Positions 3 through 64,000 of a stretch of 64,000 nucleotides of DNA are shown here, in pieces. Numbering within the stretch: position 1 is the first letter of the stretch; each line of letters starts with the position of its first letter. Under the pieces are notes generated by a model. That model worked only from the letters and a program-made list of their open reading frames with translations. It ran no database searches and was not told where the DNA came from. The stretch is from assembly GCA_016234485.1 (NCBI GenBank), contig JACRBL010000029.1:186001-250000 (forward strand), read 5' to 3'. Made by a program: the position numbers and the translations under genes. This DNA is from Chloroflexota bacterium. Its GTDB lineage: Bacteria > Chloroflexota > Anaerolineae > Anaerolineales > Villigracilaceae.

Positions 3-1610
3 AAGCGCCGCACACGCGATAGCAAAATTGTTGTGGAATACTTTAAAGAACAAGAGAAAAAAATACTTGCCGAAATCAAGAAATTACGTGCTCAGCAAAA
101 TGACGATCAACAAGATCAGGCACAGAAAAACGTACACGTATATAACGGGCTGGAGGTTTTGCAAAACCTGCTTTGGAGTGTGCGTGAACAGTTACTTGAC
201 CACGCGCTTTATATTGACCCCAATAAAATTGGTCTGACTGTTTTTAGTCGTATTTTTGATGAGGCAACCCGCACCTACAATTTCCCTTATCGTGATATTC
301 TTCTGAAACTTGTTGAGGGTTATTACGAGTGTTTTTCAACGGAACAAAAATATGAGATAGATAACAGGCATGTTAAAGCATTGCTCGACAGCGGCAAATA
401 CACTAAAGCGGAAAATCTATCAGCAAAGATACTGCGTTCGACAACGCTCTCTCCTGAAAAACGAGTGGATATGCTGATTCAGTATGGCAATATCAAGATT
501 CGTTTGGGTTATATCAAGGATGGGCGCGATTACTTTGAAAATGCAGTGAAATTGTGTCAGAGAAAAAAAATGAAACCCAGTCTGGTCCCAGCGCTCAATG
601 CCCTGGGATGGAGCTATCGCTTGCTGGGCGATTCCGAGTCCGCGATCGAGAATTATAAACGGGCGCTGGAATTAAGTATCCAAACCAAAGATCGACTTCG
701 CCGTGCCTGGATATTGAACAATCTTGCCTTTGTCTATAGCCAGCAGGCGCGCTTTGGCCCTGCGCTGGCATTATGTGACCAAGCCAATGAATTATGGGAG
801 CAGCTTAATTTTGGGCGCGGCCTGGGAGCGTTGTATGAAGTTTACGGCGCTATTTATGCTCGTATGGGGCAATTTGAAAAGGCTGTTGGAGCTTATGTAC
901 ATGCGTTGGGAAAATTCGATAAGCATGATTACGAATGGTTAAGCCGAATTCATGCTGGATTGGGTCTGGTCTATCGCCTTACTGGCGAGCTGCATCAGGC
1001 CGAACGAGAGTTGGAGATCGCGCGCGAATACAAAATCAAACGCGATGAAGCCATGATATTGCACCGCCTTGCACATGTCAAATCTGAAATGGGCCAATCT
1101 GAAATGGCTCGACGTTTATTCGAAGAGAGTTATGCTGCCAGTGTGGAAATTTCCGATGCCTATCATGAACTCAACAATCTTGGCGACTTGTCGAAGATTG
1201 CCATCAAGGAAAAGAAATATGACCGTCTCAAATATTTCACCACTCTTTATCGGAAATACAAGAATAATTGGCCAGACATGACTTATGCGCGCGCTGAAGG
1301 AATGTTATTAAAGCATCTCGCGGATTTAGCAATGGGTTTGAGCTCTAGGAATTATGCTGTGGCTGAACGTTATTACCGGCTTGCTTTTACATTGTTGGCA
1401 CGATATGAAACCTATCAGGAATATACTGTGCAGAATCAATTGATAAATGTGGAACGGCATTGGGAGAACCTAAAAGTGCCACTTGCAGAGCGCGCAAAAA
1501 TTGCGCGACTGCTATATACCACTTGGAAAAAAGAAAACCTATCTCAACAACATCCCGAAGCGACGAGTTTTTTTGTGCGCTGGATGGAAGAGGCTAAAAT
1601 CTATGAGTAA
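3..1610 (+). CDS. TPR-repeat protein, 5' end open at window edge
   Basis: The frame stays open to the left edge of the window, so the GTG at 33 need not be the start and the gene probably begins outside. The visible 530 or so residues are mostly helical TPR repeats: the stretch around LGWSYRLLGDSESAIENY and later units such as LGLVYRLTGELHQAEREL show the W/LG/Y/F/A/P spacing. A charged N-terminal helix (EQEKKILAEIKKL) looks like a coiled coil. The stop overlaps the start of the radical SAM gene by 8 nt, which implies coupled translation and a shared pathway. TPR proteins usually bind peptides or partners; here it may be a substrate-binding or regulatory partner of the enzyme (inference). The coding sequence is more AT-rich than most of the window. 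Confidence 0.8.
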   Translation, partial: KRRTRDSKIVVEYFKEQEKKILAEIKKLRAQQNDDQQDQAQKNVHVYNGLEVLQNLLWSVREQLLDHALYIDPNKIGLTVFSRIFDEATRTYNFPYRDILLKLVEGYYECFSTEQKYEIDNRHVKALLDSGKYTKAENLSAKILRSTTLSPEKRVDMLIQYGNIKIRLGYIKDGRDYFENAVKLCQRKKMKPSLVPALNALGWSYRLLGDSESAIENYKRALELSIQTKDRLRRAWILNNLAFVYSQQARFGPALALCDQANELWEQLNFGRGLGALYEVYGAIYARMGQFEKAVGAYVHALGKFDKHDYEWLSRIHAGLGLVYRLTGELHQAERELEIAREYKIKRDEAMILHRLAHVKSEMGQSEMARRLFEESYAASVEISDAYHELNNLGDLSKIAIKEKKYDRLKYFTTLYRKYKNNWPDMTYARAEGMLLKHLADLAMGLSSRNYAVAERYYRLAFTLLARYETYQEYTVQNQLINVERHWENLKVPLAERAKIARLLYTTWKKENLSQQHPEATSFFVRWMEEAKIYE

Positions 1611-3066
1611 GCCCATCCCCTCCCGTTTAATGTATGCACGATTTCATAGCGAAGTTCCAACCGGCCAATGTGATGCATGTTCGCCGATTCATCGAACTAA
1701 TGAGCCAGCACATGTTTCGATCAACGTGACGCATGTGTCCCACGCGCCACGTATTGTTTTGACTGACTCAGATTATCTTGTACTGGGTAAAGTACCAGTG
1801 ATAATTGATCGTACTATGCTGGACAGATTGGATGAAAAAATCATACTGGAATCTCGGTTCTCATCGGTTTTGAAAGTTCTGGCTAAAGTGGGATTATTAA
1901 CATGGCCAGAGGATGATTGTGCCTGCACTTCGCAGAAAGAGTGCAATTGTGCATGCGAGTTTGTTGAGAATATTCTCCTCACCTCCTGGCTCCACCTCAC
2001 CGACCGTTGCAACCTCCGCTGTGACTACTGCTACCTCCCTCACGTCCGCGAAGACATGACCTCCGCCACAGGTCGCGCCGCAATTGACGCCACCTTCCGC
2101 TCGGCGATTGCCAATGGCTTCAAGCAAGTGAAATTGAAATACGCGGGCGGTGAGCCGTTGTTGCGCTTCCCGCTGATTGTGGAATTGCATCAATACGCCC
2201 AATCGCTGGCCGTTCAACATGGCATTAATTTGGAAGGCGTGGTTCTGAGCAACGGGACACTCCTCACGTCTGCAATGATCGAGACCCTCAAATCTCTCGG
2301 CTTGCGGCTAATGATCTCCCTCGATGGACTTGCTCAACATCACGACATGCATCGTCGCTACGCGGGTGGACGTGGTTCCTTCGCGGATGTAGCCGAAGCC
2401 GTGGACTTGGCGCTTGCCAATGGTTTGACTCCTAACATCTCGGTAACAGTCAGCAATCGCACGGCGGATGGACTGCCCGATGTCATGGCATGGATTTTGG
2501 AACGCGAGTTGCCGTTCAGCCTGAACTTCTATCGCGAGAATGAACTCTCCGCATCCCATGAAGATATGCGTCTGGATGAAGAGAAAATCACCAACGGCAT
2601 GTTGGCGGCGTTCAAAGTGATCGAAGACAATCTCCCGCGCAGACCCTTCCTCGGGGGCATGATTGACCGCGCCAACCTCTCTGCTTCACATACGCACACT
2701 TGCGGGGTGGGACAAAACTATCTGGTCTTCGATCAGCACGGACAGGTTGCCAAGTGCCAGATGCAGATACGCAAACCGATCACAGATGTTCACGTGGCAG
2801 ACCCGCTGGCCGTCATCCGCTCAGACCAGAGTGGGATTCAGAATATGTCTGTGGAAGAAAAAGAAGGGTGCAAATCCTGCGAGTGGAAATATTGGTGCGC
2901 GGGTGGCTGTCCGCTCGCGACGCATCGCGCGACGGGACGGTATGATATCAAATCCCCTAATTGCAACATCTACAAAGCCCTCTTCCCCGAAGCCCTTCGT
3001 TTGGAGGGATTGCGTTTGCTAAAATATCAAGATGACCCCGAAGTGGTTCACAAGATCGTTGCGTAA
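1603..3066 (+). CDS. Radical SAM/SPASM-domain enzyme
   Basis: A protein of 487 aa. The start is ATG 1603, inside the ATGAGTAA overlap with the TPR gene, with GGAAGAGG just upstream. The radical SAM cluster motif CNLRCDYC is at C136, C140 and C143, and GGEP is at 182-185. The C-terminal SPASM domain has the full seven-cysteine spacing: C367, C385, C423, C426, C432, C436, C454, which should hold two auxiliary Fe-S clusters. A separate Cys-rich patch (CACTSQKECNCAC, about 106-118) precedes the radical SAM core. SPASM enzymes of this type are typically peptide- or protein-modifying, including RiPP maturases and sulfatase-maturase-like enzymes; no precursor peptide is visible in the window. Base composition changes from AT-rich to GC-richer near nt 1975, exactly where the catalytic domain begins. 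A strong terminator follows. Confidence 0.9.
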   Translation: MSKPIPSRLMYARFHSEVPTGQCDACSPIHRTNEPAHVSINVTHVSHAPRIVLTDSDYLVLGKVPVIIDRTMLDRLDEKIILESRFSSVLKVLAKVGLLTWPEDDCACTSQKECNCACEFVENILLTSWLHLTDRCNLRCDYCYLPHVREDMTSATGRAAIDATFRSAIANGFKQVKLKYAGGEPLLRFPLIVELHQYAQSLAVQHGINLEGVVLSNGTLLTSAMIETLKSLGLRLMISLDGLAQHHDMHRRYAGGRGSFADVAEAVDLALANGLTPNISVTVSNRTADGLPDVMAWILERELPFSLNFYRENELSASHEDMRLDEEKITNGMLAAFKVIEDNLPRRPFLGGMIDRANLSASHTHTCGVGQNYLVFDQHGQVAKCQMQIRKPITDVHVADPLAVIRSDQSGIQNMSVEEKEGCKSCEWKYWCAGGCPLATHRATGRYDIKSPNCNIYKALFPEALRLEGLRLLKYQDDPEVVHKIVA

Positions 3067-3072
3067 AAGTTG

Positions 3073-3099
3073 CCTCCCGCCTGAAAAGCGGGAGGTTTT
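3073..3099 (+). terminator. Intrinsic terminator after radical SAM gene
   Basis: An 8-bp perfect stem CCTCCCGC / GCGGGAGG (3073-3080, 3088-3095) with a 7-nt loop is followed by TTTT. It lies 7 nt after the stop codon. Confidence 0.85.
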
Positions 3100-3203
3100 C
3101 ATTTCACAGGCAGCTCAATCTCAAACCTCGTCCCACTCCCCTCAACCGAACTCGCTTTTATCCTCCCTCCATACGCCTCGACCAGCGCGTTCGCGATGAC
3201 GCG
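3099..3203 (-). pseudogene. Histidine kinase ATPase-domain fossil (C-terminal end)
   Basis: Read on the minus strand, 34 codons and a TGA stop encode the typical end of a HATPase_c domain: a VIANALVEAYGGRIKA segment, then a GSGTRFEIELPVK end. An in-frame TAG (3204-3206) sits where the GLGL box should be, and no kinase reading frame continues upstream. This is the remnant of a deleted sensor kinase. It adjoins an orphan receiver gene transcribed the other way. Confidence 0.7.
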
Positions 3204-3307
3204 CTAACCGCGTCCGCCAGGTTTCGCGAGATGTCTGGCTTTTTCGCCTCGTTTTCAACGAGTGGTAGAATCGCAACAGAATTTGACGCGGAACGAAGGA
3301 GCAAAAG

Positions 3308-3688
3308 ATGGCGAAAATTCTGTATATTGAAGACATCGAAGACAACATGACTTTCGTGAAGCGTTTTTTGATTCCGCGCGGACATGAACTGTTTTGGGCC
3401 AGGAACGCCGAATCGGGGTTGGAGATGGCCTTTCAGGTGAAGCCCGATTTGATTTTGCTCGATCTTGGCCTGCCCGACGCAGACGGCCAAACCCTTTCAA
3501 CGTGGCTGCGCGGGGAGCCTATGTTGGAGACAGTGCCGATCGTGGTGTTGACGGCCTGGCCGGCAGAGGTGGCGCGCCACACCGTGGAAGCCTACGGGTT
3601 GGACGGCTACCTGTGCAAGCCGTTCAAGATCAACGAACTCATTCAACTGATAGACAAATTGCTGGAACCGACGCGCCATGAAGATTGA
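3308..3688 (+). CDS. Single-domain response regulator (receiver only)
   Basis: A protein of 126 aa, CheY-like, with no output domain. The acidic pocket is IEDIEDN (E8, D9), the phosphoacceptor is D52 in LLDLGLPDADG, the switch residue is T82 and the conserved lysine is K104 in CKPF. GAAGGAG precedes the ATG. The last 11 nt overlap the start of the GNAT gene, so the two are co-translated. The nearest kinase sequence is only a fossil, so its phosphodonor is probably one of the kinases in the 5-25 kb block (inference). Confidence 0.92.
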   Translation: MAKILYIEDIEDNMTFVKRFLIPRGHELFWARNAESGLEMAFQVKPDLILLDLGLPDADGQTLSTWLRGEPMLETVPIVVLTAWPAEVARHTVEAYGLDGYLCKPFKINELIQLIDKLLEPTRHED

Positions 3689-4553
3689 AATTGTGCCTGC
3701 GTCGCGTTTTTCCATTCAGGAATTGACGGATCTCTACAATCAAACCCGCGTAGATTATCTGGTTCCCATGCCGATGAGCGCCGATCGCCTGATGGAATAT
3801 GTGCGCGATTTTAACGTTGACCTTTCGCGTTCGTGCATTGCCCGCGAAAGCGATGGGCAGACCCTTGGACTGAGCATGTTGGGAATGCGCCCCGGGCGGG
3901 GATGGGTGACGCGCCTGGGCGTGTTGCCTGGCACGCGTCGCCATGGCGTGGGGGCCATGCTGATGGATTGCATGTTGGAAAATGCCGAACAGGCGGGCGT
4001 GGGGGAGATCATCCTTGAAGTGATTCAGGATAACGCGCCAGCCTATAATCTTTTTTTGAGCAAAGGGTTCGAGGAGATCGGTTCGTGGCTGGTGATGCGC
4101 CGCGCCCCGCGTCTTGTCTCTGCCGAGCCGCAGGGAGAGATCGAAGCGTTGACGCGCGAGCAGGCGTTGGAGGCGCTGCGGGCCTATCCACATCATGTCA
4201 CCTGGATCAACGCGTATGAGTCCATGAGCAACGCGCCCGATGTCGAGGGGATGCGGATTCAACTTCCCAATGGGGGCAGGGGATGGATTGTGTATCGGAG
4301 TCACAAGTACACGCTTCGATATAGTCTCAGCCATTTGGTCTTGCATACCGAAGAAGGCGACCCTGCTGAAGTGGGCCTGCAACTTTTACTCAATCTGCAT
4401 ACCCAAAACCCCCGTCACGATACGTATGCTGAAAATATTCACACAGACGATCCCCATCTCGTGGCGTTTGGCGAATTGGGTTATTTCAAAAACTTTTCCC
4501 GTATAGAGATGCGCCGCAAGGCGGGTGCGCCTGTGAATTTTCCCGCGGTTTAA
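3678..4553 (+). CDS. GNAT-family N-acetyltransferase with extra C-terminal domain
   Basis: A protein of 291 aa. Residues 1-145 form a GNAT fold: the acetyl-CoA pyrophosphate-binding loop is RRHGVGA at 87-93, after the beta-4 strand TRLGVLPG, followed by the NAPAYNLFLSKGFEEIG motif. Residues 150-291 are a second domain that may be a degenerate GNAT-like half; I see no motif in it. The start overlaps the receiver gene by 11 nt. The acceptor substrate cannot be told. Pairing with a receiver suggests the acetylation is linked to signal transduction (inference). Confidence 0.85.
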   Translation: MKIEIVPASRFSIQELTDLYNQTRVDYLVPMPMSADRLMEYVRDFNVDLSRSCIARESDGQTLGLSMLGMRPGRGWVTRLGVLPGTRRHGVGAMLMDCMLENAEQAGVGEIILEVIQDNAPAYNLFLSKGFEEIGSWLVMRRAPRLVSAEPQGEIEALTREQALEALRAYPHHVTWINAYESMSNAPDVEGMRIQLPNGGRGWIVYRSHKYTLRYSLSHLVLHTEEGDPAEVGLQLLLNLHTQNPRHDTYAENIHTDDPHLVAFGELGYFKNFSRIEMRRKAGAPVNFPAV

Positions 4554-4560
4554 CGCGAAG

Positions 4561-4589
4561 CGTCGCGCCTTTTGAAGATGGGCGCGACG
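4561..4589. terminator. GC-rich hairpin between convergent genes
   Basis: Stem CGTCGCGCC / GGCGCGACG (9 bp) lies just after the GNAT stop. It has no T-tract, so it may be a weak terminator or a simple transcript-end stabiliser. Confidence 0.45.
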
Positions 4590-4635
4590 CGACAATTGTT
4601 CACTGGCTTTTGTGTAGAGCAAGCGCTATTTGTTT

Positions 4636-4717
4636 CTGCGAGGAGGGCTCTCTTCCCGACGAAGCAGTCTCCATGCCGGGAGAGGGGATTGCTTCGCGAA
4701 GTGCGCTCGCAATGACG
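4636..4717. repeat. Palindromic TCATTGCGAG-family repeat, copy 1
   Basis: Intergenic, between convergent genes. The left end CTGCGAGGAGGG and right end GCTCGCAATGACG are imperfect inverted ends; the inner parts GACGAAGCAGTCTCC and GGGGATTGCTTCGCG also pair. It is the same family as the copies at 27727, 38168, 41853, 45594, 51672 and 53282. Confidence 0.8.
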
Positions 4718-4756
4718 ATTACAGTAGTGTTTCTATAAAACCGTGATTTGCCGAAT

Positions 4757-5143
4757 TTATTTATTCAGGGGAGATGGCACGAACGCTTCCACCCGCGCCC
4801 ACAACTCGCGAATGTTGATCGGCTTCGACATGTACACATCGCAACCCGCCGCGAGCGCTTTTTCCGCGTCGCCTTTCAAGGCGTTGGCGGTGACGGCGAT
4901 GATCGGCACGTAGGCCAGCGCGTGCTTTGCGCTGGACCGGATGCGCCTCGCCACTTCGTAGCCGTCAATATCGGGCAGGTTGATATCGAGCAAAATCAAA
5001 TCCACTTCTTCCGCCTCGGCCATCGTCACACCTTTGAGTCCATTCTCGGCCTTCAACAATTTGTAGCCGCGCGATTCCAGGGCGCGTTGCACGAGCAACA
5101 TGTTATCGGGGTTATCTTCGACGTATAAAATATTGTTTCCCAT
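4757..5143 (-). CDS. Single-domain response regulator (CheY/DivK-like)
   Basis: A protein of 128 aa, receiver domain only. It has E9, D10 and D13 in VEDNPDN, phosphoacceptor D53 in LLDINLPDIDGYE, T85 and K107 in MSKPINI. It starts 3 nt after the stop of the threonine-synthase/receiver fusion and is the last gene of the long minus-strand signalling run. Such stand-alone receivers act as phosphotransfer intermediates or as protein-binding outputs. A likely donor is the soluble kinase two genes upstream. Confidence 0.92.
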   Translation of the reverse strand: MGNNILYVEDNPDNMLLVQRALESRGYKLLKAENGLKGVTMAEAEEVDLILLDINLPDIDGYEVARRIRSSAKHALAYVPIIAVTANALKGDAEKALAAGCDVYMSKPINIRELWARVEAFVPSPLNK

Positions 5144-5146
5144 CGT

Positions 5147-6799
5147 TCATTCTCCTTGGTCCGCGCTTTTCTCTGCGATGACCTGGATGACCTGATCCAC
5201 AAACTTGCGCGTGGACAGTGAACCTTTCTGGTACAACGCTTCAATGTGACCGTTGAGGCGTTCGCGCTCTTCCTTTGTAATATCCTTTGCGCTGACGACT
5301 ACCACGGGGATGTTCTTGGTGCGCGGATCTAATTTTAACTCTTCCACCAGCCCAAAGCCATCAATGCCTGGCATGGTCAAATCGCTCACGATCAGGTCGG
5401 GCAGTTTTTGCCGCGCCATGGCGAGGCCCTCCCAGCCGTCTTTGGCGTGGTAGACGCGATAGGTCTTGCGCGCTTCCAACATGCGGCGGATGAGGTGGGC
5501 GTCATCGGGGTTGTCGTCAACCAGCAAAACGGTGGTGGCTTTCTCATCCAGGTTTTCGAGCGCGGCTTGCAGACCTTCGCGCGGCGCGGGGGATTGGTCT
5601 TCGCTCAGGTGGATGTCCACCGCGAACTGGTCGCCCAGCACGTGCTTTTCGACGGGGAAGGTGTGTCCCGTGCAGTTGACGACGACCGTCTCGTCCGCGC
5701 CGATCGTCCCGTTTTTGAGCGCCTTTTCGAGACCCGCGAACGCGACCGCCGTCGCAGGCTCCACGGCCATGCCCTCGCTTTTGGCGAGCGCCTGCATGGC
5801 GGAATAGGCTTCGTGGTCGGTCACTGATTCCATCACGCCGCCGAATTGCTGGGTCAGTTTCCACAGGTAGGTGTAGGCTTTGCCAGGGTCGCCCGTGGAT
5901 AGGATGATGATGCGCGTATCGGGGATGACAGGTTCGGCCACGTCTTTGCCGGCTTTGAAGGCATGCGCCATCGGCGCGCATCCTTCCGCTTGAATAATTG
6001 CCAATTTTGGGATTTTATTGATCAGCCCCATGTGGAGCATTTCTTTGAATCCTTGATACACGCCCAGCGGGCCGAGTCCGCCGCTGACGGCCTGCACGTA
6101 CCAATCGGGCGCGCGCCAGCCGAGTTGTTCCACAATTTCGTAGGCGATGGTTTTCATGGATTCTTTGGCGGGGATGGAACTCGCGCCGCGGTCGAGCAGC
6201 AGGTTGCGCCTCTGCGCGAACTGCGCGGCGATCTGCTTCGTCTGGTCATAGTTGCCGCTGACGCGGATCACCTCTGCGCCGAAGAGCGCGGCCTCGCGCA
6301 GTTTTTCCTGCGGCACGAGGCTGGTCATAAAGACCCACAGTTTAATGCCCGCCCGCGCGCAAGCCGACGCGTAGGCCACCGCCGCGTTGCCCGTGGATGC
6401 GATCACCGCTTCGCGAATCCCGTTTTCGTTCATGGCGGCCACGGCCACCGCGGCCTGCCTGTCTTTGAAGGAGGAGGTCGGACCGTAGCGTTCGTCTTTG
6501 ATGAAGACGGAACCCGCCCCCAGCGAAGGAGCGAAGCGAGCCGAATGCCAGAGGGGAGTCCCGCCGGCGGGGTAGAGGTCCAAAGTGGAGGGATTGTTCA
6601 GCGGCAGGATGTCCTGATAACGCCAGAGGTTGGAGGGGCGGTTGGGAAGTCCGCGCAGGATTTCGCGTTTGAAGGCCTCGTAATCGTAGCGCGCTTCCAG
6701 CCATTGCGATTGGCAATGTTTGCAGATGCCCGGCACGAAGGGTTCGTAGGGTTGTTGTTTTCCGCAGATCACACATTCCAGGGTGAGGGGGAGCGCCAT
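5147..6799 (-). CDS. Threonine-synthase-like PLP enzyme fused to receiver domain
   Basis: A protein of 550 aa. The start is ATG 6799, overlapping the kinase stop by one base (TAATG). Residues 5-30 are a zinc-ribbon (C9, C12, C26, C29). Residues 75-395 are a fold-type II PLP enzyme: the Schiff-base lysine is K112 in SSFKDR, with the phosphate loop SGGLGPLG at 239-246 and a C-terminal CTGHTFP. This matches threonine synthase or a close homologue. Residues 421-545 are a complete receiver domain: D428/D429, phosphoacceptor D473 in SDLTMPGIDG, S503, and K525 in YQKGS. The two halves form one uninterrupted reading frame. Classic threonine synthase (phosphohomoserine to threonine) has no receiver. 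The link implies phosphorylation-controlled amino-acid metabolism, or re-use of the PLP fold in signalling (inference). Confidence 0.88.
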   Translation of the reverse strand: MALPLTLECVICGKQQPYEPFVPGICKHCQSQWLEARYDYEAFKREILRGLPNRPSNLWRYQDILPLNNPSTLDLYPAGGTPLWHSARFAPSLGAGSVFIKDERYGPTSSFKDRQAAVAVAAMNENGIREAVIASTGNAAVAYASACARAGIKLWVFMTSLVPQEKLREAALFGAEVIRVSGNYDQTKQIAAQFAQRRNLLLDRGASSIPAKESMKTIAYEIVEQLGWRAPDWYVQAVSGGLGPLGVYQGFKEMLHMGLINKIPKLAIIQAEGCAPMAHAFKAGKDVAEPVIPDTRIIILSTGDPGKAYTYLWKLTQQFGGVMESVTDHEAYSAMQALAKSEGMAVEPATAVAFAGLEKALKNGTIGADETVVVNCTGHTFPVEKHVLGDQFAVDIHLSEDQSPAPREGLQAALENLDEKATTVLLVDDNPDDAHLIRRMLEARKTYRVYHAKDGWEGLAMARQKLPDLIVSDLTMPGIDGFGLVEELKLDPRTKNIPVVVVSAKDITKEERERLNGHIEALYQKGSLSTRKFVDQVIQVIAEKSADQGE

Positions 6800-58764: not shown

Positions 58765-59877
58765 ATGTCTGACCGTCTCCTTCCGCCTGTTTGGGTGGCA
58801 ACAAGTTCCGCGCTCGAATCGCTGACAAACGCGCTCGCAAGTCAAACGCGCGTCGCGGTGGATACCGAATCCAATTCGCTCCACGCCTACCGCGAGCAGG
58901 TCTGCCTCATCCAATTTTCCACGCCAGAGAACGACTATCTCGTTGACCCGCTCGCGCTGGCCGATCTTGATCCGCTCGCGCCTATCTTTGCCAATCCGCG
59001 CATCGAAAAAATTTTCCACGCCGCAGAGTATGACATCCTCTGCCTGCGCCGCGATTTTGGTTTTACCTTTGCGAACATTTTCGACACCATGCAAGCCGAA
59101 CGGATTTTGGGATTTGAAAAAGTGGGATTGGACGCCGCCCTCGAAAAATATTTCAACGTGATCGTGGACAAACGCTTCCAAAAAGCGGACTGGGGGGCGC
59201 GTCCGCTCGCGCGTGACCTGCTGGAGTATGCCCGCTTCGACACGCGTTACCTCATCCCGTTGCGCGACGCGCTCCAGCGCGAACTTGAAGAAAAGGGACG
59301 CGGGGAACTCGCCCGCGAAGACTTCCATCGCCTCTGCTGGGCGAACGGGGAAGTCGCGGCCGAGACGCCCGAACCATGGGAGCGCTACGCCAATCGCCGC
59401 GATTTGAATTTGCGCGAGTTGACGATTTTACGCGAACTGACCAACCTGCGCGAAAAGATCGCCGCCAAACTCGATCGCCCGCCGTTCAAGGTCATCGGCG
59501 AGGACAAGCTCTTCGCCATCGCGCGCGCTGTCCCGAAGACGAAGAAGGAAGTGGCCGACATGCTAAGCGAGAGACAGGCGGCGCGCTGGGGCGGCGAAGT
59601 CCTCGCGGCGGTGGGGAGGGGCGCGGCGGCTCCGCTCGTGAAGCGCAGGCCCGCCCAACGTCCAGATGACGCGGTTCTTCGTCGGTTGGACGCGCTCAAA
59701 GAGTGGCGCAAAAAAGTCGCCATGCAGATGGGCGTGGAGTCGGATATCGTCCTGCCGCGGCCGTTTTTGAATGCGCTGGCCGAGCGCGGCGGGCATGACA
59801 TGAAATCGATTCTCGAAACGTCCCCCACGCGGCTGGCGCAATATGGCGAACAAATTTTAAAAGTTTTAGGAGGCTGA
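58765..59877 (+). CDS. rnd: Ribonuclease D
   Basis: A protein of 370 aa from ATG 58765. The DEDDy exonuclease has VAVDTESNSLHAY (motif I), IFHAAEYDILCLRRDFG (motif II) and LLEYARFDTRYLIPL (motif III with Y). An HRDC domain (about 205-290, NLREKIAAKLDRPPFKVIGE) follows and a second HRDC-like part ends it. RNase D trims the 3' ends of tRNA precursors. It is followed by a beta-CASP nuclease and tRNA-Ser. Confidence 0.92.
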   Translation: MSDRLLPPVWVATSSALESLTNALASQTRVAVDTESNSLHAYREQVCLIQFSTPENDYLVDPLALADLDPLAPIFANPRIEKIFHAAEYDILCLRRDFGFTFANIFDTMQAERILGFEKVGLDAALEKYFNVIVDKRFQKADWGARPLARDLLEYARFDTRYLIPLRDALQRELEEKGRGELAREDFHRLCWANGEVAAETPEPWERYANRRDLNLRELTILRELTNLREKIAAKLDRPPFKVIGEDKLFAIARAVPKTKKEVADMLSERQAARWGGEVLAAVGRGAAAPLVKRRPAQRPDDAVLRRLDALKEWRKKVAMQMGVESDIVLPRPFLNALAERGGHDMKSILETSPTRLAQYGEQILKVLGG

Positions 59878-59878
59878 A

Positions 59879-61273
59879 ATGCGTATTCACTTTCATGGCG
59901 CGGCTCATACGGTGACTGGCTCGCAACATTTGATCGAAATCAACGGCTCGCGACTTCTGCTGGAGTGCGGGCTGTATCAAGGCAAACGCGACGAGTCTTT
60001 TGCCCGCAACCGAAGTTTTAAATTTGACCCGCGTTCTGTGGACGCGATGATCCTCTCCCATTCGCACATTGACCACTGCGGCAATTTGCCGAATTTGGTG
60101 AAGCAGGGATTTAAAGGCTCGATTTATTTAACAAAACCCGCCGCCGAGTTGACCGACGTGATGTTGCGCGATTCGGGTCACATCCAGGAATCGGACGCGG
60201 AATATTTAAACAAGAAGCGACGGGCGCGCGGCGAGCCTTTGATCGAGCCGCTTTATACGCAACAGGATGCGGAAGCCGTCTCGGAAAATTTTGTGCCGAA
60301 GAATTATGGCGAGGAGTTCGAGCCAGCCCCTGGCGTGAAAGCGCGCTTCGTGGAAGCGGGACACATTCTCGGCTCGGCGGCCATGTCGTTGGAGTTGACC
60401 GAGAAGGGTCGCAAAGTCCGCTTCTGGTTTTCGGGCGATATTGGGCGTTATCATCTTCCGCTGTTGCGCGATCCCATTTTGCCCGACGACGCGGATTTCC
60501 TCCTGATGGAATCCACCTACGGCGACAAGCCGCATCGCGGTCCGCAACTCGCGTATGAGGAGTTTCGCGAAGTGGTGCGGCGCACGCAGGAACGCGGCGG
60601 CAAGGTCATCATCCCCGCCTTCGCGGTGGGACGCACGCAGGAGCTCGTCTACTGGCTGAACACGATGATGCACGAAGACGGTATAAAGATGATGCCCGTC
60701 TATGTGGATAGCCCGCTGGCCGTGAACGCGTCGGACGTGTTCAAGCGCTTCGCCGACACCTTCGACGAGGAGACGCGCACGTTTGTCCGCGAGAACCGCC
60801 ACCCCGCCCTCGACTTTGAGCGGCTGACCTACGTCCGATCGGTGGAGGAGTCGAAGGCGCTGAACGAACGCCGCGAGCCGATGGTCATTATCTCCGCTTC
60901 GGGCATGGCCGAGACGGGACGCATCCTGCACCATTTGAAGAACAACATCGAAAACGCCAATAACACCATCTGCATCGTCTCGTGGCAAGCGCCCGAAACG
61001 CTGGGACGCCGATTGGCCGAACGCGAAAAGCAGGTGAAGATTTTTGGCGAAATTTATAACGTGCGCGCCGAAGTCTCCACGATCGGCGGACTCTCAGGCC
61101 ACGCCGGCCAGGACTTGTTGATGCAATACGCGCTGGCGGGGAATGGCAAGAAGCGGAAAGTATTCCTTGTCCACGGGGAGGAAAAGCCCGCTTCGATCTT
61201 GCAGGGTAAATTGCGCGATGTCGGCATCCGTCAAGCGGAGTATCCTGAAATGCACAGCAGCGCGGAACTGTAA
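59879..61273 (+). CDS. Metallo-beta-lactamase/beta-CASP RNA nuclease
   Basis: A protein of 464 aa; AGGAGG stands ahead of the ATG. The metal site is LSHSHIDHCGNLP with further ligands in GHILGSAAM and FSGDIGR. The beta-CASP region (about 200-380) has MESTYGDKPH, PAFAVGRTQELVYWL, YVDSPLAV, ISASGMAETGR and the C-terminal GLSGHAGQ with its histidine. It matches the YSH1/CPSF-like bacterial RNA processing nucleases. It is coupled to rnd, which suggests joint RNA maturation. Confidence 0.93.
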   Translation: MRIHFHGAAHTVTGSQHLIEINGSRLLLECGLYQGKRDESFARNRSFKFDPRSVDAMILSHSHIDHCGNLPNLVKQGFKGSIYLTKPAAELTDVMLRDSGHIQESDAEYLNKKRRARGEPLIEPLYTQQDAEAVSENFVPKNYGEEFEPAPGVKARFVEAGHILGSAAMSLELTEKGRKVRFWFSGDIGRYHLPLLRDPILPDDADFLLMESTYGDKPHRGPQLAYEEFREVVRRTQERGGKVIIPAFAVGRTQELVYWLNTMMHEDGIKMMPVYVDSPLAVNASDVFKRFADTFDEETRTFVRENRHPALDFERLTYVRSVEESKALNERREPMVIISASGMAETGRILHHLKNNIENANNTICIVSWQAPETLGRRLAEREKQVKIFGEIYNVRAEVSTIGGLSGHAGQDLLMQYALAGNGKKRKVFLVHGEEKPASILQGKLRDVGIRQAEYPEMHSSAEL

Positions 61274-61277
61274 AGTG

Positions 61278-61290
61278 GATTGCCAATCCG
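61278..61290. repeat. GGATTGCCAATCC palindrome
   Basis: A short copy of the 19-nt palindrome found in wecB, five nt after the beta-CASP gene stop. Confidence 0.5.
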
Positions 61291-61371
61291 CCCCACGTTT
61301 GCTAATTTTTTTCGGTTATAATCTGCGCCGCTCACTTGACACCTGATACGTGGAACGTGACACCGAAATAT

Positions 61372-61458
61372 GGAGAGGTGCCAGAGTGGTTGAATGGGAC
61401 GGTCTCGAAAACCGTTGTGGGCTCCGGTCCACCGAGGGTTCGAATCCCTCCCTCTCCG
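61372..61458 (+). tRNA. tRNA-Ser (anticodon CGA)
   Basis: 87 nt. The acceptor stem GGAGAGG/CCTCTCC has discriminator G. The anticodon stem ACGGT/ACCGT holds loop CTCGAAA, giving CGA for UCG codons. A long variable arm (GTGG...CCAC) and T-arm GAGGG-TTCGAAT-CCCTC confirm a class II serine tRNA. CCA is not encoded. A strong terminator starts 5 nt downstream. Confidence 0.96.
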
Positions 61459-61462
61459 CTAA

Positions 61463-61492
61463 CCCCGATCAAGAATGATCGGGGTATTTTTT
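61463..61492 (+). terminator. Terminator 1, after tRNA-Ser
   Basis: CCCCGATC-aagaat-GATCGGGG, then TATTTTTT. Confidence 0.88.
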
Positions 61493-61500
61493 CCCACTGA

Positions 61501-61545
61501 GCGCCCCCATTAAGGGGATGGGATTCGAATCCCTCCCTCTCCGCT
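61501..61545 (+). repeat. tRNA-Ser 3'-end copy 2
   Basis: 22 nt (61524-61545) are identical to the T-loop, T-stem, acceptor end and following CT of the tRNA. They are preceded by CGCCCCCATTAAGGGGATG, a small CCCC/GGGG hairpin. No anticodon or 5' acceptor arm exists. The distance to copy 1 is 85 nt. Confidence 0.85.
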
Positions 61546-61549
61546 AAAA

Positions 61550-61576
61550 GCCTGACTTGAATGGTCAGGCTTTTTT
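61550..61576 (+). terminator. Terminator 2
   Basis: GCCTGAC-ttgaatg-GTCAGGC, then TTTTTT. It follows copy 2 and is unrelated in sequence to terminators 1 and 3. Confidence 0.85.
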
Positions 61577-61584
61577 ATTTCCAC

Positions 61585-61630
61585 CGCGCCCCCATTCAGG
61601 GGATGAAGTTCGAATCCCTCCCTCTCCGCT
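61585..61630 (+). repeat. tRNA-Ser 3'-end copy 3
   Basis: 22 nt (61609-61630) are identical to copies 1 and 2, again preceded by CGCCCCCATTCAGGGGATG. The T-stem 5' strand is lost here (GAAG). The distance to copy 2 is 85 nt. Confidence 0.85.
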
Positions 61631-61633
61631 GAG

Positions 61634-61662
61634 AAACGCGTCCGCAAAGACGCGTTTTTTTT
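61634..61662 (+). terminator. Terminator 3
   Basis: AAACGCGTC-cgcaaa-GACGCGTTT with the T-run extended to eight T. Confidence 0.85.
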
Positions 61663-61741
61663 ACAGACTATCAAGACTGAAAGCATCCAATTTGACAAAT
61701 GTGCATATAATCCAGCCACTTTTACCAAATAGGAGATTGCC

Positions 61742-63019
61742 ATGAAAATTCACCGTTCGATATTTATCGTGATCGTATTTGCCCTTTTGCTTTCAGCCTG
61801 TGGCGGAAGCGCGCCCGCGGAGCCAACGCAAGCCCCCACGCTTGCGCCTCCCGCCGAGACGCCCGCGCCAACTCTCGCCCTCGCGCCGACCGAGACCGCC
61901 ATCCCTCTGCCCACGTTCACTCCAACCTCCCTGTCTACGGTTGATCCCGAAATCATCAAGCAATGCAAGCCCGCGCCGGTCGCGTTCACGAACGTGGGAT
62001 TTGGCTTCCCGCCCGCCGACTATAAGTTGCCCTCCCTCGGCGACGTGAAAACCATTGTGTTGTTTGCCGATTTCGCCGATGTGCCAGGCGCGACAACGCC
62101 AGAACAATTCTTCTCCGAATTTTCGCCCAACGCTGAAAATTTCTATTCCACCGTGTCCTATGGGCGCATGAATTGGATTCTCGAGCCGCACATGAAATGG
62201 CTGAGACTGAGTCAGGACTCGGCCTACTATGGCGAAGCGATCCGTTCCTACGATGGACACCTGGAATTTATTCAGGAAGCGGTTCGCCTCGCGGACCCCG
62301 AGGTGGATTTTTCCAGCGCGGACTCGGTCGTGGTGATGGTCCCGCCGGAGGCGACCGCGGTTGAATTTGGTCCCGCCCTGGGCGCCAATCCGGGTGAAGG
62401 TTATTCAGCCGATGGCAAGGTCTTCTCGAACGGCGTAACGTCCGCCGCGGACTTTCCAAATTGGGGCTTCATCTGGCTCAATCACGAAAGCGGTCACACC
62501 ATGGGCCTGCCCGACCTCTACGGCTACGATTGGGACGGCACGAATTACGATGACATTCATCGCTTTGTCGGCGGTTTCGGGGCGATGGGTTACACCGCCG
62601 GGGACGCGATGGAGTTTTTCGCCTTCGAGCGCTGGCAACTGGGCTGGCTGGACGATAACCAGTTCGTCTGTCAATTGGATGCCGACCAGACCACGACTCT
62701 CTCCGCCATTGAAATGGCAGGCGGTTTGAAGGCGGTGATCGTCCCCCTTGGAGTGAACCGCATCCTGGTCGTCGAATCGCGGCGGGCGCTGGGATATGAC
62801 GAAAAGATATCCAAGGAAGGCGCGCTCGTCTACGTGGTGGATACAACCATCGCGTCGGGCTATGGGACCTTGGCCGTGTATCCCGTTTTGGACGGCGATC
62901 CCTATCGCTATAAGTCCCCGCTGGCGGTGGGCGAATCCGTCACCGTGGAGGGCGTGACCGTCACCGTGATCGAAGCGACCGATCAAGGAGACACAGTGCA
63001 AGTGACTGTCGCAAAGTAA
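61742..63019 (+). CDS. M6-like metalloprotease lipoprotein
   Basis: A protein of 425 aa; GGAG is upstream of the ATG. The lipobox LLLSAC has modified C20, followed by a Pro/Thr linker (about 25-65). The catalytic domain has NHESGHTMGLPDLYGYDWDG with zinc ligands H248 and H252, catalytic E249 and the downstream D258, as in immune-inhibitor-A type (M6) peptidases. A loop with GAMGYTAGDAMEFFAFERWQLGWL follows the site. It probably acts as a cell-surface peptidase. Confidence 0.88.
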   Translation: MKIHRSIFIVIVFALLLSACGGSAPAEPTQAPTLAPPAETPAPTLALAPTETAIPLPTFTPTSLSTVDPEIIKQCKPAPVAFTNVGFGFPPADYKLPSLGDVKTIVLFADFADVPGATTPEQFFSEFSPNAENFYSTVSYGRMNWILEPHMKWLRLSQDSAYYGEAIRSYDGHLEFIQEAVRLADPEVDFSSADSVVVMVPPEATAVEFGPALGANPGEGYSADGKVFSNGVTSAADFPNWGFIWLNHESGHTMGLPDLYGYDWDGTNYDDIHRFVGGFGAMGYTAGDAMEFFAFERWQLGWLDDNQFVCQLDADQTTTLSAIEMAGGLKAVIVPLGVNRILVVESRRALGYDEKISKEGALVYVVDTTIASGYGTLAVYPVLDGDPYRYKSPLAVGESVTVEGVTVTVIEATDQGDTVQVTVAK

Positions 63020-63025
63020 GACGTA

Positions 63026-63065
63026 AAGACTTCCGAGGTTTCGTTGACTTCGGAAGTCTTTTTTT
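63026..63065. terminator. Bidirectional terminator
   Basis: AAGACTTCCGA / TCGGAAGTCTT (11 bp) with A and T runs, between convergent protease and transporter genes. Confidence 0.8.
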
Positions 63066-63984
63066 ATTCCGTCTTATCGCCCCAGCGCAACAGGATGACT
63101 CCAGTGAAGACCATCACACTTCCGATCCACTGAATGGAATTGAGTTGTTCGCGAAGCAGGAAGTACGCCCAAATGGACGTGAGCGCGGGTTCGAGCGTGG
63201 CGATGAGATTTGCGACGGTGGGCGCGAGATAGCGGAGGCTGAGGGTGTAGAGTCCAAAGCCGCCGAGGGTGGGCGCGATGGCAAGGAAGATGAGAAAACC
63301 CCAGGCCGAGACGGAATCGCCGAGCCAGAGCATGTCGGAGAGGAGCAGCTTGCCGGAGAATCCGTCCACGGCGAGGTTGAAGAGCAGGAGGAAGAACGTG
63401 GCGATGGCGAAACTGTAGAGCAGGGCCGTCCACGAATCAATAGATTGGTCGGAGGCGCGCTTGCCTTCGAGATTGTAGAAGGCGAAGAAGAGTCCCGTGA
63501 ACAGGCCGAAGGTGATACCGAGCGGATTGACGCGCCAGTTGGCAAAGTCATGCGCGCCCGAGACGAGGAAGGTTCCAAGCAGACTCAAGACGATGGAGAG
63601 AATCTTGACGCGGTTGAAATTTTCCTTGAAGATGATCTTGCTTAAGATGGCCGTCATCGCGGGGGAGGAAAAGGCCAAAACGGTCGCGACCGCCGCCCCG
63701 TTGTATTGAACCGAAAACGTCCAGAGCGAGTTGAAAACCGCCAGCGTGAGTCCATATAAGACGAGGAATGTCCAATGCGAACGATCCAGATGAAAACGCG
63801 CGCGGCTGAACAACGCAAAGATGAGGGCGAGGCCGATCGAAAGGAAAAGGTCGCGCCAGAAGGCCAGCACGAGGGACGGAAGCGCGTAGGTCTTGCTGAG
63901 GTAACTGATGAGGATGCCCGTGAACGACCAGAGGACGGTGGCGGTGAGCGCGATGACGTAGCCGCGCGAGTAGGTTGATTTCAT
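63064..63984 (-). CDS. EamA/DMT-family transporter
   Basis: A protein of 306 aa with ten hydrophobic segments in two EamA repeats (about 7-145 and 155-300). Signatures include ATVLWSFTGILISYLSK at the start, a FSSPAMTAILSKIIFKE end of repeat 1 and LEPALTSIWAYFLLREQL in repeat 2. DMT members export metabolites such as amino acids; the substrate is unknown. The start ATG has GGAG nearby. The whole gene is inside the window. Confidence 0.92.
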   Translation of the reverse strand: MKSTYSRGYVIALTATVLWSFTGILISYLSKTYALPSLVLAFWRDLFLSIGLALIFALFSRARFHLDRSHWTFLVLYGLTLAVFNSLWTFSVQYNGAAVATVLAFSSPAMTAILSKIIFKENFNRVKILSIVLSLLGTFLVSGAHDFANWRVNPLGITFGLFTGLFFAFYNLEGKRASDQSIDSWTALLYSFAIATFFLLLFNLAVDGFSGKLLLSDMLWLGDSVSAWGFLIFLAIAPTLGGFGLYTLSLRYLAPTVANLIATLEPALTSIWAYFLLREQLNSIQWIGSVMVFTGVILLRWGDKTE

Positions 63985-64000
63985 GGAGACTCCGCAATGC

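Follow-up and report, generated by a model that had tools for sequence, protein, structure and literature searches.

Arrays of 3'-end copies carrying a conserved hairpin behind tRNA, tmRNA and RNase P RNA genes of Anaerolineales

In Anaerolineales, tRNA, tmRNA and RNase P RNA genes can be followed by short arrays in which the end of the gene itself is repeated, nearly every time with a small hairpin set into the copy. These arrays suggest a cassette, so far undescribed, by which essential RNA genes have their ends copied and multiplied. The locus followed up here belongs to a window of 64,000 nt, that is, the whole stretch of DNA analysed, which corresponds to positions 186001-250000 of contig C8 in a Chloroflexota genome of 68 contigs and 4.46 Mb (G000). 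We read this locus as two gene-end cassettes arrayed behind a tRNA gene, a reading whose likelihood we place somewhat short of even.

All features of the window locus lie on the + strand. The parent gene, tRNA-Ser(CGA), occupies 61372..61459 (ARAGORN; Rfam RF00005, 58.7 bits), and its own 3' end, from the T-loop to 2 nt past the discriminator (B1, 61439..61460), is an exact instance of the 22-mer TTCGAATCCCTCCCTCTCCGCT. A terminator, T1, follows at 61462..61492 (fold -17.7 kcal/mol, z -5.1). The first unit begins with A' (61493..61503), which by eye is a copy of the gene immediately 5' of the T-loop (CCCACTGAGCG vs CCACCGAGGG); it continues with the hairpin H (GCGCCCCCATTAAGGGGATGGGA, 61501..61523), which is set between A' and B and is also present behind other RNA genes, and ends with the second exact copy of the 22-nt tail (B2, 61524..61545) and the terminator T2 (61546..61577; -17.2 kcal/mol, z -5.5). 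The second unit repeats this order with A' (CCACCGCG, 61581..61588, sequence comparison by eye), H (GCGCCCCCATTCAGGGGATGAAG, 61586..61608), the third exact copy of the tail (B3, 61609..61630) and T3 (61631..61662; -15.2 kcal/mol, z -4.9). Terminators resembling T2 are found by eye behind Ser(CGA) in L094, L127, L012, L013 and L016, and terminators resembling T3 in L009, L011 and L109.

When the whole 4.46-Mb genome was searched, the 22-mer was found exactly at 61439, 61524 and 61609 only, the four other matches having 3 mismatches each; because it is exact three times and absent elsewhere, chance is ruled out for the tail copies. The original prediction, made from the letters of the window, was thus right that the 22-nt end of the tRNA-Ser recurs at 61524 and 61609 and that three strong and unrelated terminators are present (z about -5 each). 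It had also described an 85-nt period and a CCCC/GGGG hairpin upstream of the two extra tails. The period exists in the window, where a unit is made of 85 nt of tail, terminator and hairpin without integrase or cargo, but it is incidental, as other arrays are spaced from ~56 to >200 nt. Copies two and three do have GCGCCCCCATT[A/C]AGGGGATG in common 5' of the tail, and the hairpin is there, but it is embedded in the copied tRNA end, and other RNA genes are followed by it as well. Immediately upstream of the tRNA, at 58768-61273, the window holds genes for an RNase D-like protein (DNA_pol_A_exo1 and HRDC) and a beta-CASP/RMMBL nuclease (Pfam). The original prediction had linked this neighbourhood to a possible role of the tail RNAs in titrating tRNA 3'-processing enzymes. 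As an argument for titration the link fails, and the neighbourhood seems coincidental to the array: dozens of arrays belong to other RNA genes, and in genome G014 the gene downstream of the Ser(CGA) array is a different one.

The extra tail of tRNA-Ser(CGA) is a copy of the last ~32 nt of the gene, with a ~20-nt hairpin of the type CCCC-ATTNA-GGGG-ATGATA placed within the T-loop. The order of a unit is A' (the sequence just 5' of the T-loop), H (~20 nt), B (from the T-loop to the 3' end) and usually a terminator, and its size is mostly ~55-110 nt. The insertion is seen plainly in a tRNA-Met copy (L065), which reads CTTGGTCGCTGGT [CCCCATTGAGGGGATGGTA] TTCGACTCCAGCC. A' and H precede B in nearly all copies (80 of 181 tRNA loci had copies; H served to fetch many of these loci, which biases the figure). 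The A|B boundary differs by RNA gene, being located in the T-loop, in the variable loop or in the RNase P core, a variation that no single known recombinase explains. That each copy has its own terminator does not hold as a rule: by eye, no terminator lies between the copies of single arrays at Pro (L363), Val (L366), Arg (L174), Asn (L089) and rnpB (L250), and one is present between the copies of arrays at Val, Pro and Asn in L043, L046 and L070. Two further kinds of insert were observed. In L127, L109, L102, L273, L166 and L158, a second hairpin class (e.g. CCCGCAAGGGGACGATG) is placed either at the T-loop or in the interval from H to the tail, and copies of the Val tail have a third insert type, similar to GAAGCACCCTGCGGGTTGCG, in their acceptor arm (L053, L055).

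G000 has nine exact copies of CCCCATTNAGGGGATG: two behind Ser-CGA, two behind tmRNA (a gene assigned with Rfam), and one each behind Ser-GCT, Val-CAC, Pro-TGG, Lys-TTT and Glu-TTC. Each time it is followed by the tail of its own parent gene, decayed at Lys and partly at Glu. Met-CAT (L199) has a tail copy with another hairpin; no units were found at the RNase P RNA gene of this genome (L243). By the criterion of the tail, 6 of the 44 tRNA genes of G000 have copies, a count that omits a 3-mismatch Ala match, taken as a neighbouring tRNA, and that includes some tRNAs with <200 nt of downstream sequence.

The same layout was found widely when other tRNA genes and related genomes were searched, as the original prediction had proposed. 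Exact H is present in 36 of the 120 genomes of the window's family. A scan of GTDB contigs returned 75 stretches, 72 of them with Chloroflexota titles, the named ones being mostly Anaerolineales; of the other three, L087 and L091 have a locus without a tRNA, and L103 carries a tail array. Of 298 genomes sampled across the class, H is matched in 6, and all six are among the 14 from the window's own family; a variant unit is found in another family of the order (L171), and no exact H was found in viral contigs. All these counts use the exact pattern and miss variants. The GTDB contig loci hold 108 distinct exact matches (111 with three duplicates, since L151 repeats L089), 87 of which follow a tRNA at a distance of 15-341 nt and on its strand, the strand being set by the search rule. 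Among the remaining ones, 8 are <120 nt from an edge and 13 are of other kinds: eight of these are array sequence whose parent tRNA is not seen (L101, L105, L149, L132 three times, L103 twice), and five fit poorly (L085, L087, L091, L104, L125). Moreover, the isolate Anaerolinea thermolimosa IMO-1 has an array behind tRNA-Asn (L089). Because this isolate and the single-contig genome G014 both have the layout, the array is not an artefact of one metagenome-assembled genome, the outcome that would have undone the original prediction.

A survey that was not selected by H concerned tRNA-Ser(GGA), whose gene was matched in 104 of the 120 genomes; five of the 104 loci were too short, and L302 was dropped as a chance coding match. 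Units are present at 22 of 99 genes, so that the presence of arrays is patchy, and ~10 more genes have decayed remnants by eye. Some assemblies are broken at or near a tRNA or an array (G030:C85, G035:C423, G000:C4, G011:C115), and unit numbers in draft genomes are therefore lower bounds. A tRNA-Met-like sequence without an ARAGORN call was seen in L125 (Levilinea saccharolytica, ~5580-5760) and on the reverse strand of L103 (~5850-6200); the Levilinea saccharolytica version has hairpin inserts at several points, which are absent from that of L103.

RNase P RNA genes carry units in nine of the 41 loci read, out of 55 found (L216, L218, L219, L225, L229, L231, L248, L250 and L253), and two further arrays are L064 in G090 and L370 in G030. 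The clearest boundary has the hairpin at GGACAGAA|TGCGG, a site in the conserved 3' region of the RNA, which we take to be helix P4. On contig C1 of G024 (L367, ~1000-1320) there are consecutive copies of the RNase P RNA tail with the hairpin CCCCCGTTGGGGGG; Rfam did not find the RNase P RNA gene on this contig stretch. A similar MITE-like insertion with the inverted repeat AGTGTTTCTTAAAT..AAACACTCT was noted inside the rnpB array L231 (G081) and directly behind rnpB in L244 (G005).

How such units might arise can be outlined from their sequence. The account that we prefer, tentatively and at nearly but not quite an even chance, is insertion at the end of the gene of a cassette that would bring a replacement tail, followed by recombination between tails. 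The cassette would consist of B, in most cases followed by a terminator of its own, of a short A' and of H, in this order, and would enter the RNA gene at the A|B boundary. The B of the incoming cassette would complete the gene, and the old B would be pushed downstream behind A' and H; in this way the cassette would act as a miniature gene-restoring element. Identical copies of B could then recombine, by which further units would be added or lost, and H would be kept because it is read by a putative trans-acting factor, either DNA- or RNA-binding. In support of this mechanism stand the common A'-H-B layout of units at tRNAs of many kinds, at tmRNA and at RNase P RNA, the position of 87 of the 108 exact H matches, and the stem, loop and terminator evidence given below; presence is patchy, with decayed remnants. 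Against it stand the variation of the boundary between RNA genes, the predicted folds of the window units, which lack H, and the mixed comparison of terminators; moreover, we found no cargo-bearing partner, circle or enzyme in the sequences analysed. The original prediction had proposed serial integration of mobile elements, a suggestion that is only half right, as the units are mostly ~55-110 nt, gene-free, and also present at tmRNA and RNase P RNA.

The hairpin H is under constraint, and its stem shows compensatory changes in Ser arrays. Covariation was evaluated on 22 same-register cores from Ser arrays, derived partly from the survey of Ser(GGA) and partly from loci similar to the window array, with the motif G[AG]G required; 21 of 43 cores were left out because their loop length, hairpin or register differed. 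Among the 22, a C-G pair is replaced by U-A at the second position of the stem in five cores and at the third in two. The covariation score is 0.235, against 0.129 in shuffled alignments, with 0 of 500 shuffles as high, and 7 cells are changed on both sides against 1.6 in shuffles; two of the five measures are unexceptional (double-change pairs, 79/500; further pair types, 432/500), and an alignment slid by one column scores 0.192. When all loci are considered, a few more compensated stems are found beside Ser tails and fewer half-changed ones, and some of the rows are chance hits off tails.

The loop gives a second line of evidence. Whether its variable base is G or not is concordant across loci within genomes for 42 pairs out of 45, where 22.2 would be expected (1 of 20,000 shuffles), in a test uncorrected for phylogeny and with the G065 array (C94, C219) counted once. 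The base is G in 0/12 cases in genus g1, 0/8 in g16 (with one array counted twice), 5/5 in g11 and 16/21 in g8; it follows the genus, and shared descent therefore explains part of the agreement. That the base shifts jointly across different genes suggests that units may spread between genes or that a common factor may read the loop.

A conserved hairpin could also belong to an RNA with a job of its own, and a functional processed RNA is the main rival of the cassette reading, unlikely on our estimate, yet with a substantial chance of being right. Units would be read through, cut by tRNA-processing enzymes, and the hairpin and tail kept for the work of the RNA, for instance as a decoy that draws off RNA 3'-end-binding factors. 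The covariation in Ser arrays fits such an RNA, as does the position of the 87 counted matches on the tRNA strand, which is fixed by the search rule; the single Pro, Val, Arg, Asn and rnpB arrays with no terminator between copies would be co-transcribed with their gene. By eye the E. coli tyrT locus shows the same A'-hairpins-B anatomy, and its RtT RNA is described in PMC4986893 as released during tRNA processing; small RNAs produced by terminator read-through are moreover known behind rRNA operons (PMC8144298). On the other hand, the two window units fold no better than shuffles (z -0.4 and +0.6), and H is absent from the predicted minimum-energy fold of both. The RtT covariance model (E <=1) has no match in seven loci or regions, namely the window at 59000-64000, L155, L162, L250, L076, L174 and L173, and in the same run it matches E. 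coli (L256) three times. Units at only 22 of 99 Ser(GGA) genes, with ~10 more decayed, also count against a functional RNA of this kind.

The terminators bear on how units arrive. In the array-free locus L020, and by eye in L021, Ser(CGA) is directly followed by a terminator of the form ACCCTANAGG..CCTNTAGGGT / ACCCTAAAGG..CCTTTAGGGT; a third array-free Ser(CGA) locus, L014, has a different terminator. In L010 (G014) the L020-type terminator is found behind the last copy and differs from the terminator behind the tRNA, and the same is true of L127; the best scores of these last terminators, 18 and 24, are both with L020, and the maximum of a shuffled null is 14. By eye, the last terminator of L084 resembles that of the array-free L023. 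For Ser(GGA), the last terminator of a 4-unit array in G005 matches array-free G001, of the same genus (score 30, L294). Where the last terminator is like that of an array-free site, the unit therefore sits between the body of the gene and its apparent old end. To this extent, in a few relatives, the terminators lie as serial insertion at the tRNA end, the original suggestion, would leave them.

The systematic comparison of terminators with empty sites is mixed. At a score >=20, Ser(GGA) arrays (n=23) match an empty site by the last terminator only in 2 cases, by the first only in 6, by both in 6 and by none in 9; the corresponding figures are 0, 2, 1 and 11 for Ser(CGA) (n=14), and 0, 1, 1 and 14 for Ser(GCT), where there is one empty site (n=16). 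First terminators also match sites scored as empty, such as that of L127 with L013 (23) and that of G005 with L007 (25). That they do so at least as often as last terminators is partly because decayed arrays keep the first one: by eye, L013, L007, L258, L016 and L314 are decayed arrays, and L267 and L284 have no clear remnant. The 7-nt acceptor strand was compared in 80 arrays; in the last copy it is identical in 68, pairs worse with the 5' strand of the gene in 11 and better in 1 (L165), and these counts therefore give no support to a mismatched incoming tail. An empty site may also arise by deletion, so that the gain of units is inferred and not proven.

The same data bear on neutral local duplication, which we consider unlikely. 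In that case unequal crossing-over would copy the gene end, the hairpins would be by-products of repair or slippage, and the units would be passive pseudo-ends. Of 53 Ser arrays, a set that includes L021, mis-scored as an array, 18 have a first and a last terminator that clearly resemble each other (score >=26), which is what tandem duplication would give; with this count, unrelated terminators, which the original prediction had stressed, do not hold as a rule. As expected for ageing copies, in arrays of at least two units the first copy is closer to the gene in 9, the last in 2, and 20 are tied (n=31). Recent local duplication does not, however, predict the unrelated terminators of the window or the scores of only 6-7 between first and last terminators in L010, L127 and L155, and a neutral process does not account for the same hairpin behind unrelated RNA genes and genera or for the compensatory stem changes in Ser arrays. 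Simple tandem duplication as the whole story was rejected, since it fails both on the common hairpin behind unrelated RNA genes and on the unrelated terminators.

It is improbable that the tails are scars of integrase islands, each being the displaced fragment left by a phage or integrative element deleted later. The targets would suit, since tRNA and tmRNA genes are the usual targets of integrases, with the gene regenerated and a fragment displaced (PMC4383910). One locus, L085, resembles such a case: at 1000-4800 an apparent end of an integrative element, with HTH_17 (excisionase-type) and ParA-type genes, directly borders a hairpin array with a Ser(GGA)-like tail. No integrase was found in the five frames scanned there, and no tRNA was called in the 8-kb locus. 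The junction itself lacks H, and ordinary islands are therefore not obviously the source of the units; exact H is also absent from viral contigs. Among the phage (20) and plasmid (44) records matched, none covers 80% of the query; the matches listed, 8 of each, cover 29-31% of it, in the tRNA part. Dozens of similar small scars at many RNA genes, with A' and H before nearly every B, would moreover be needed.

A retroelement process, by which stable RNAs would be reverse-transcribed from their 3' ends with a template switch to a hairpin RNA, is very improbable: the copies do span the 3' ends of varied structured RNAs and are broken in conserved structures, but they remain beside their source gene, and no RVT_1 match was found in the array-bearing drafts G011, G030, G062, G072, G073 and G075, which rejects reverse transcriptase as a necessary agent. 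Two known array types were also rejected. CRISPR arrays consist of identical repeats parted by unique non-self spacers, and here the intervals between hairpins are copies of the end of the parent RNA. In integron attC sites crossover takes place at the G|TT of a GTT-type core, and by eye the boundary of the units fits G|TT at Ser and not at Val, Pro or rnpB.

A bolder form of the cassette reading, which we hold to be doubtful, would be a homology-guided miniature mobile cassette that can attack any stable-RNA gene, whether of a tRNA, tmRNA or RNase P RNA, at its 3' end, supplies a replacement end, acquires the gene-end sequences of each target, and is recognised through its one hairpin by a dedicated, putative enzyme of the host or of the element. 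In many genomes of the family a Y1 transposase domain is part of a long open frame (~540-600 aa), whose product may be domesticated and is a candidate hairpin binder; a Y1 transposase is present in 117 of 120 genomes and is therefore uninformative.

Several known systems share features with the arrays. REP-type repeats are dispersed in intergenic regions whatever the neighbour. The units are like REP sequences in having short hairpins, compensatory stem changes and several copies per genome; unlike them, H is not dispersed, given that 87 of the 108 distinct exact matches lie downstream of tRNA genes. The small RNAs rrA, rrB and rrF lie between the dual terminators of E. coli rRNA operons and arise through read-through; an RNA from the arrays would similarly lie between successive terminators behind a stable-RNA gene, whereas rrA, rrB and rrF are not presented as copies of gene 3' ends in the abstract of PMC8144298.

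Genomic islands integrated in tRNA genes are another such system. In the islands reported by Islander, tRNA and tmRNA genes are regenerated and the displaced fragment is left (PMC4383910). As in such islands, a tail lies ahead of a downstream duplicate of the 3' end of the gene. The terminators of last copies resemble those of array-free sites in L010, L127 and G005, with mixed results in the wider survey. Unlike islands, the units have no integrase or cargo, are mostly ~55-110 nt, contain a hairpin inside the displaced copy and target RNase P RNA as well.

The closest known system is RtT, and by their anatomy the arrays of Anaerolineales are repeats of that kind in another phylum. In the tyrT locus of E. 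coli (RF00391, annotated rttR), a piece of the variable and T-arm of the tRNA, a hairpin-forming sequence and the last 18 nt of the tRNA are repeated, by eye; in both cases repeats downstream of a tRNA contain its 3' end. Unlike RtT, the units of Anaerolineales have one short conserved hairpin with a compensating stem, and they are found behind many tRNA species, tmRNA and RNase P RNA. No description of tail arrays in Anaerolineales or Chloroflexi is among the literature matches listed, in lists that were short. For annotators, a practical caution is that some contigs in Anaerolineales end at these arrays. The arrays show a natural route by which essential RNA genes have their 3' ends and terminators copied, and perhaps replaced. 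RtT, an oddity long known from tRNA operons, has a counterpart in a second phylum, at many tRNA genes and at tmRNA and RNase P RNA genes, so that the origin of such repeats and the importance of their RNAs can be put to the test.
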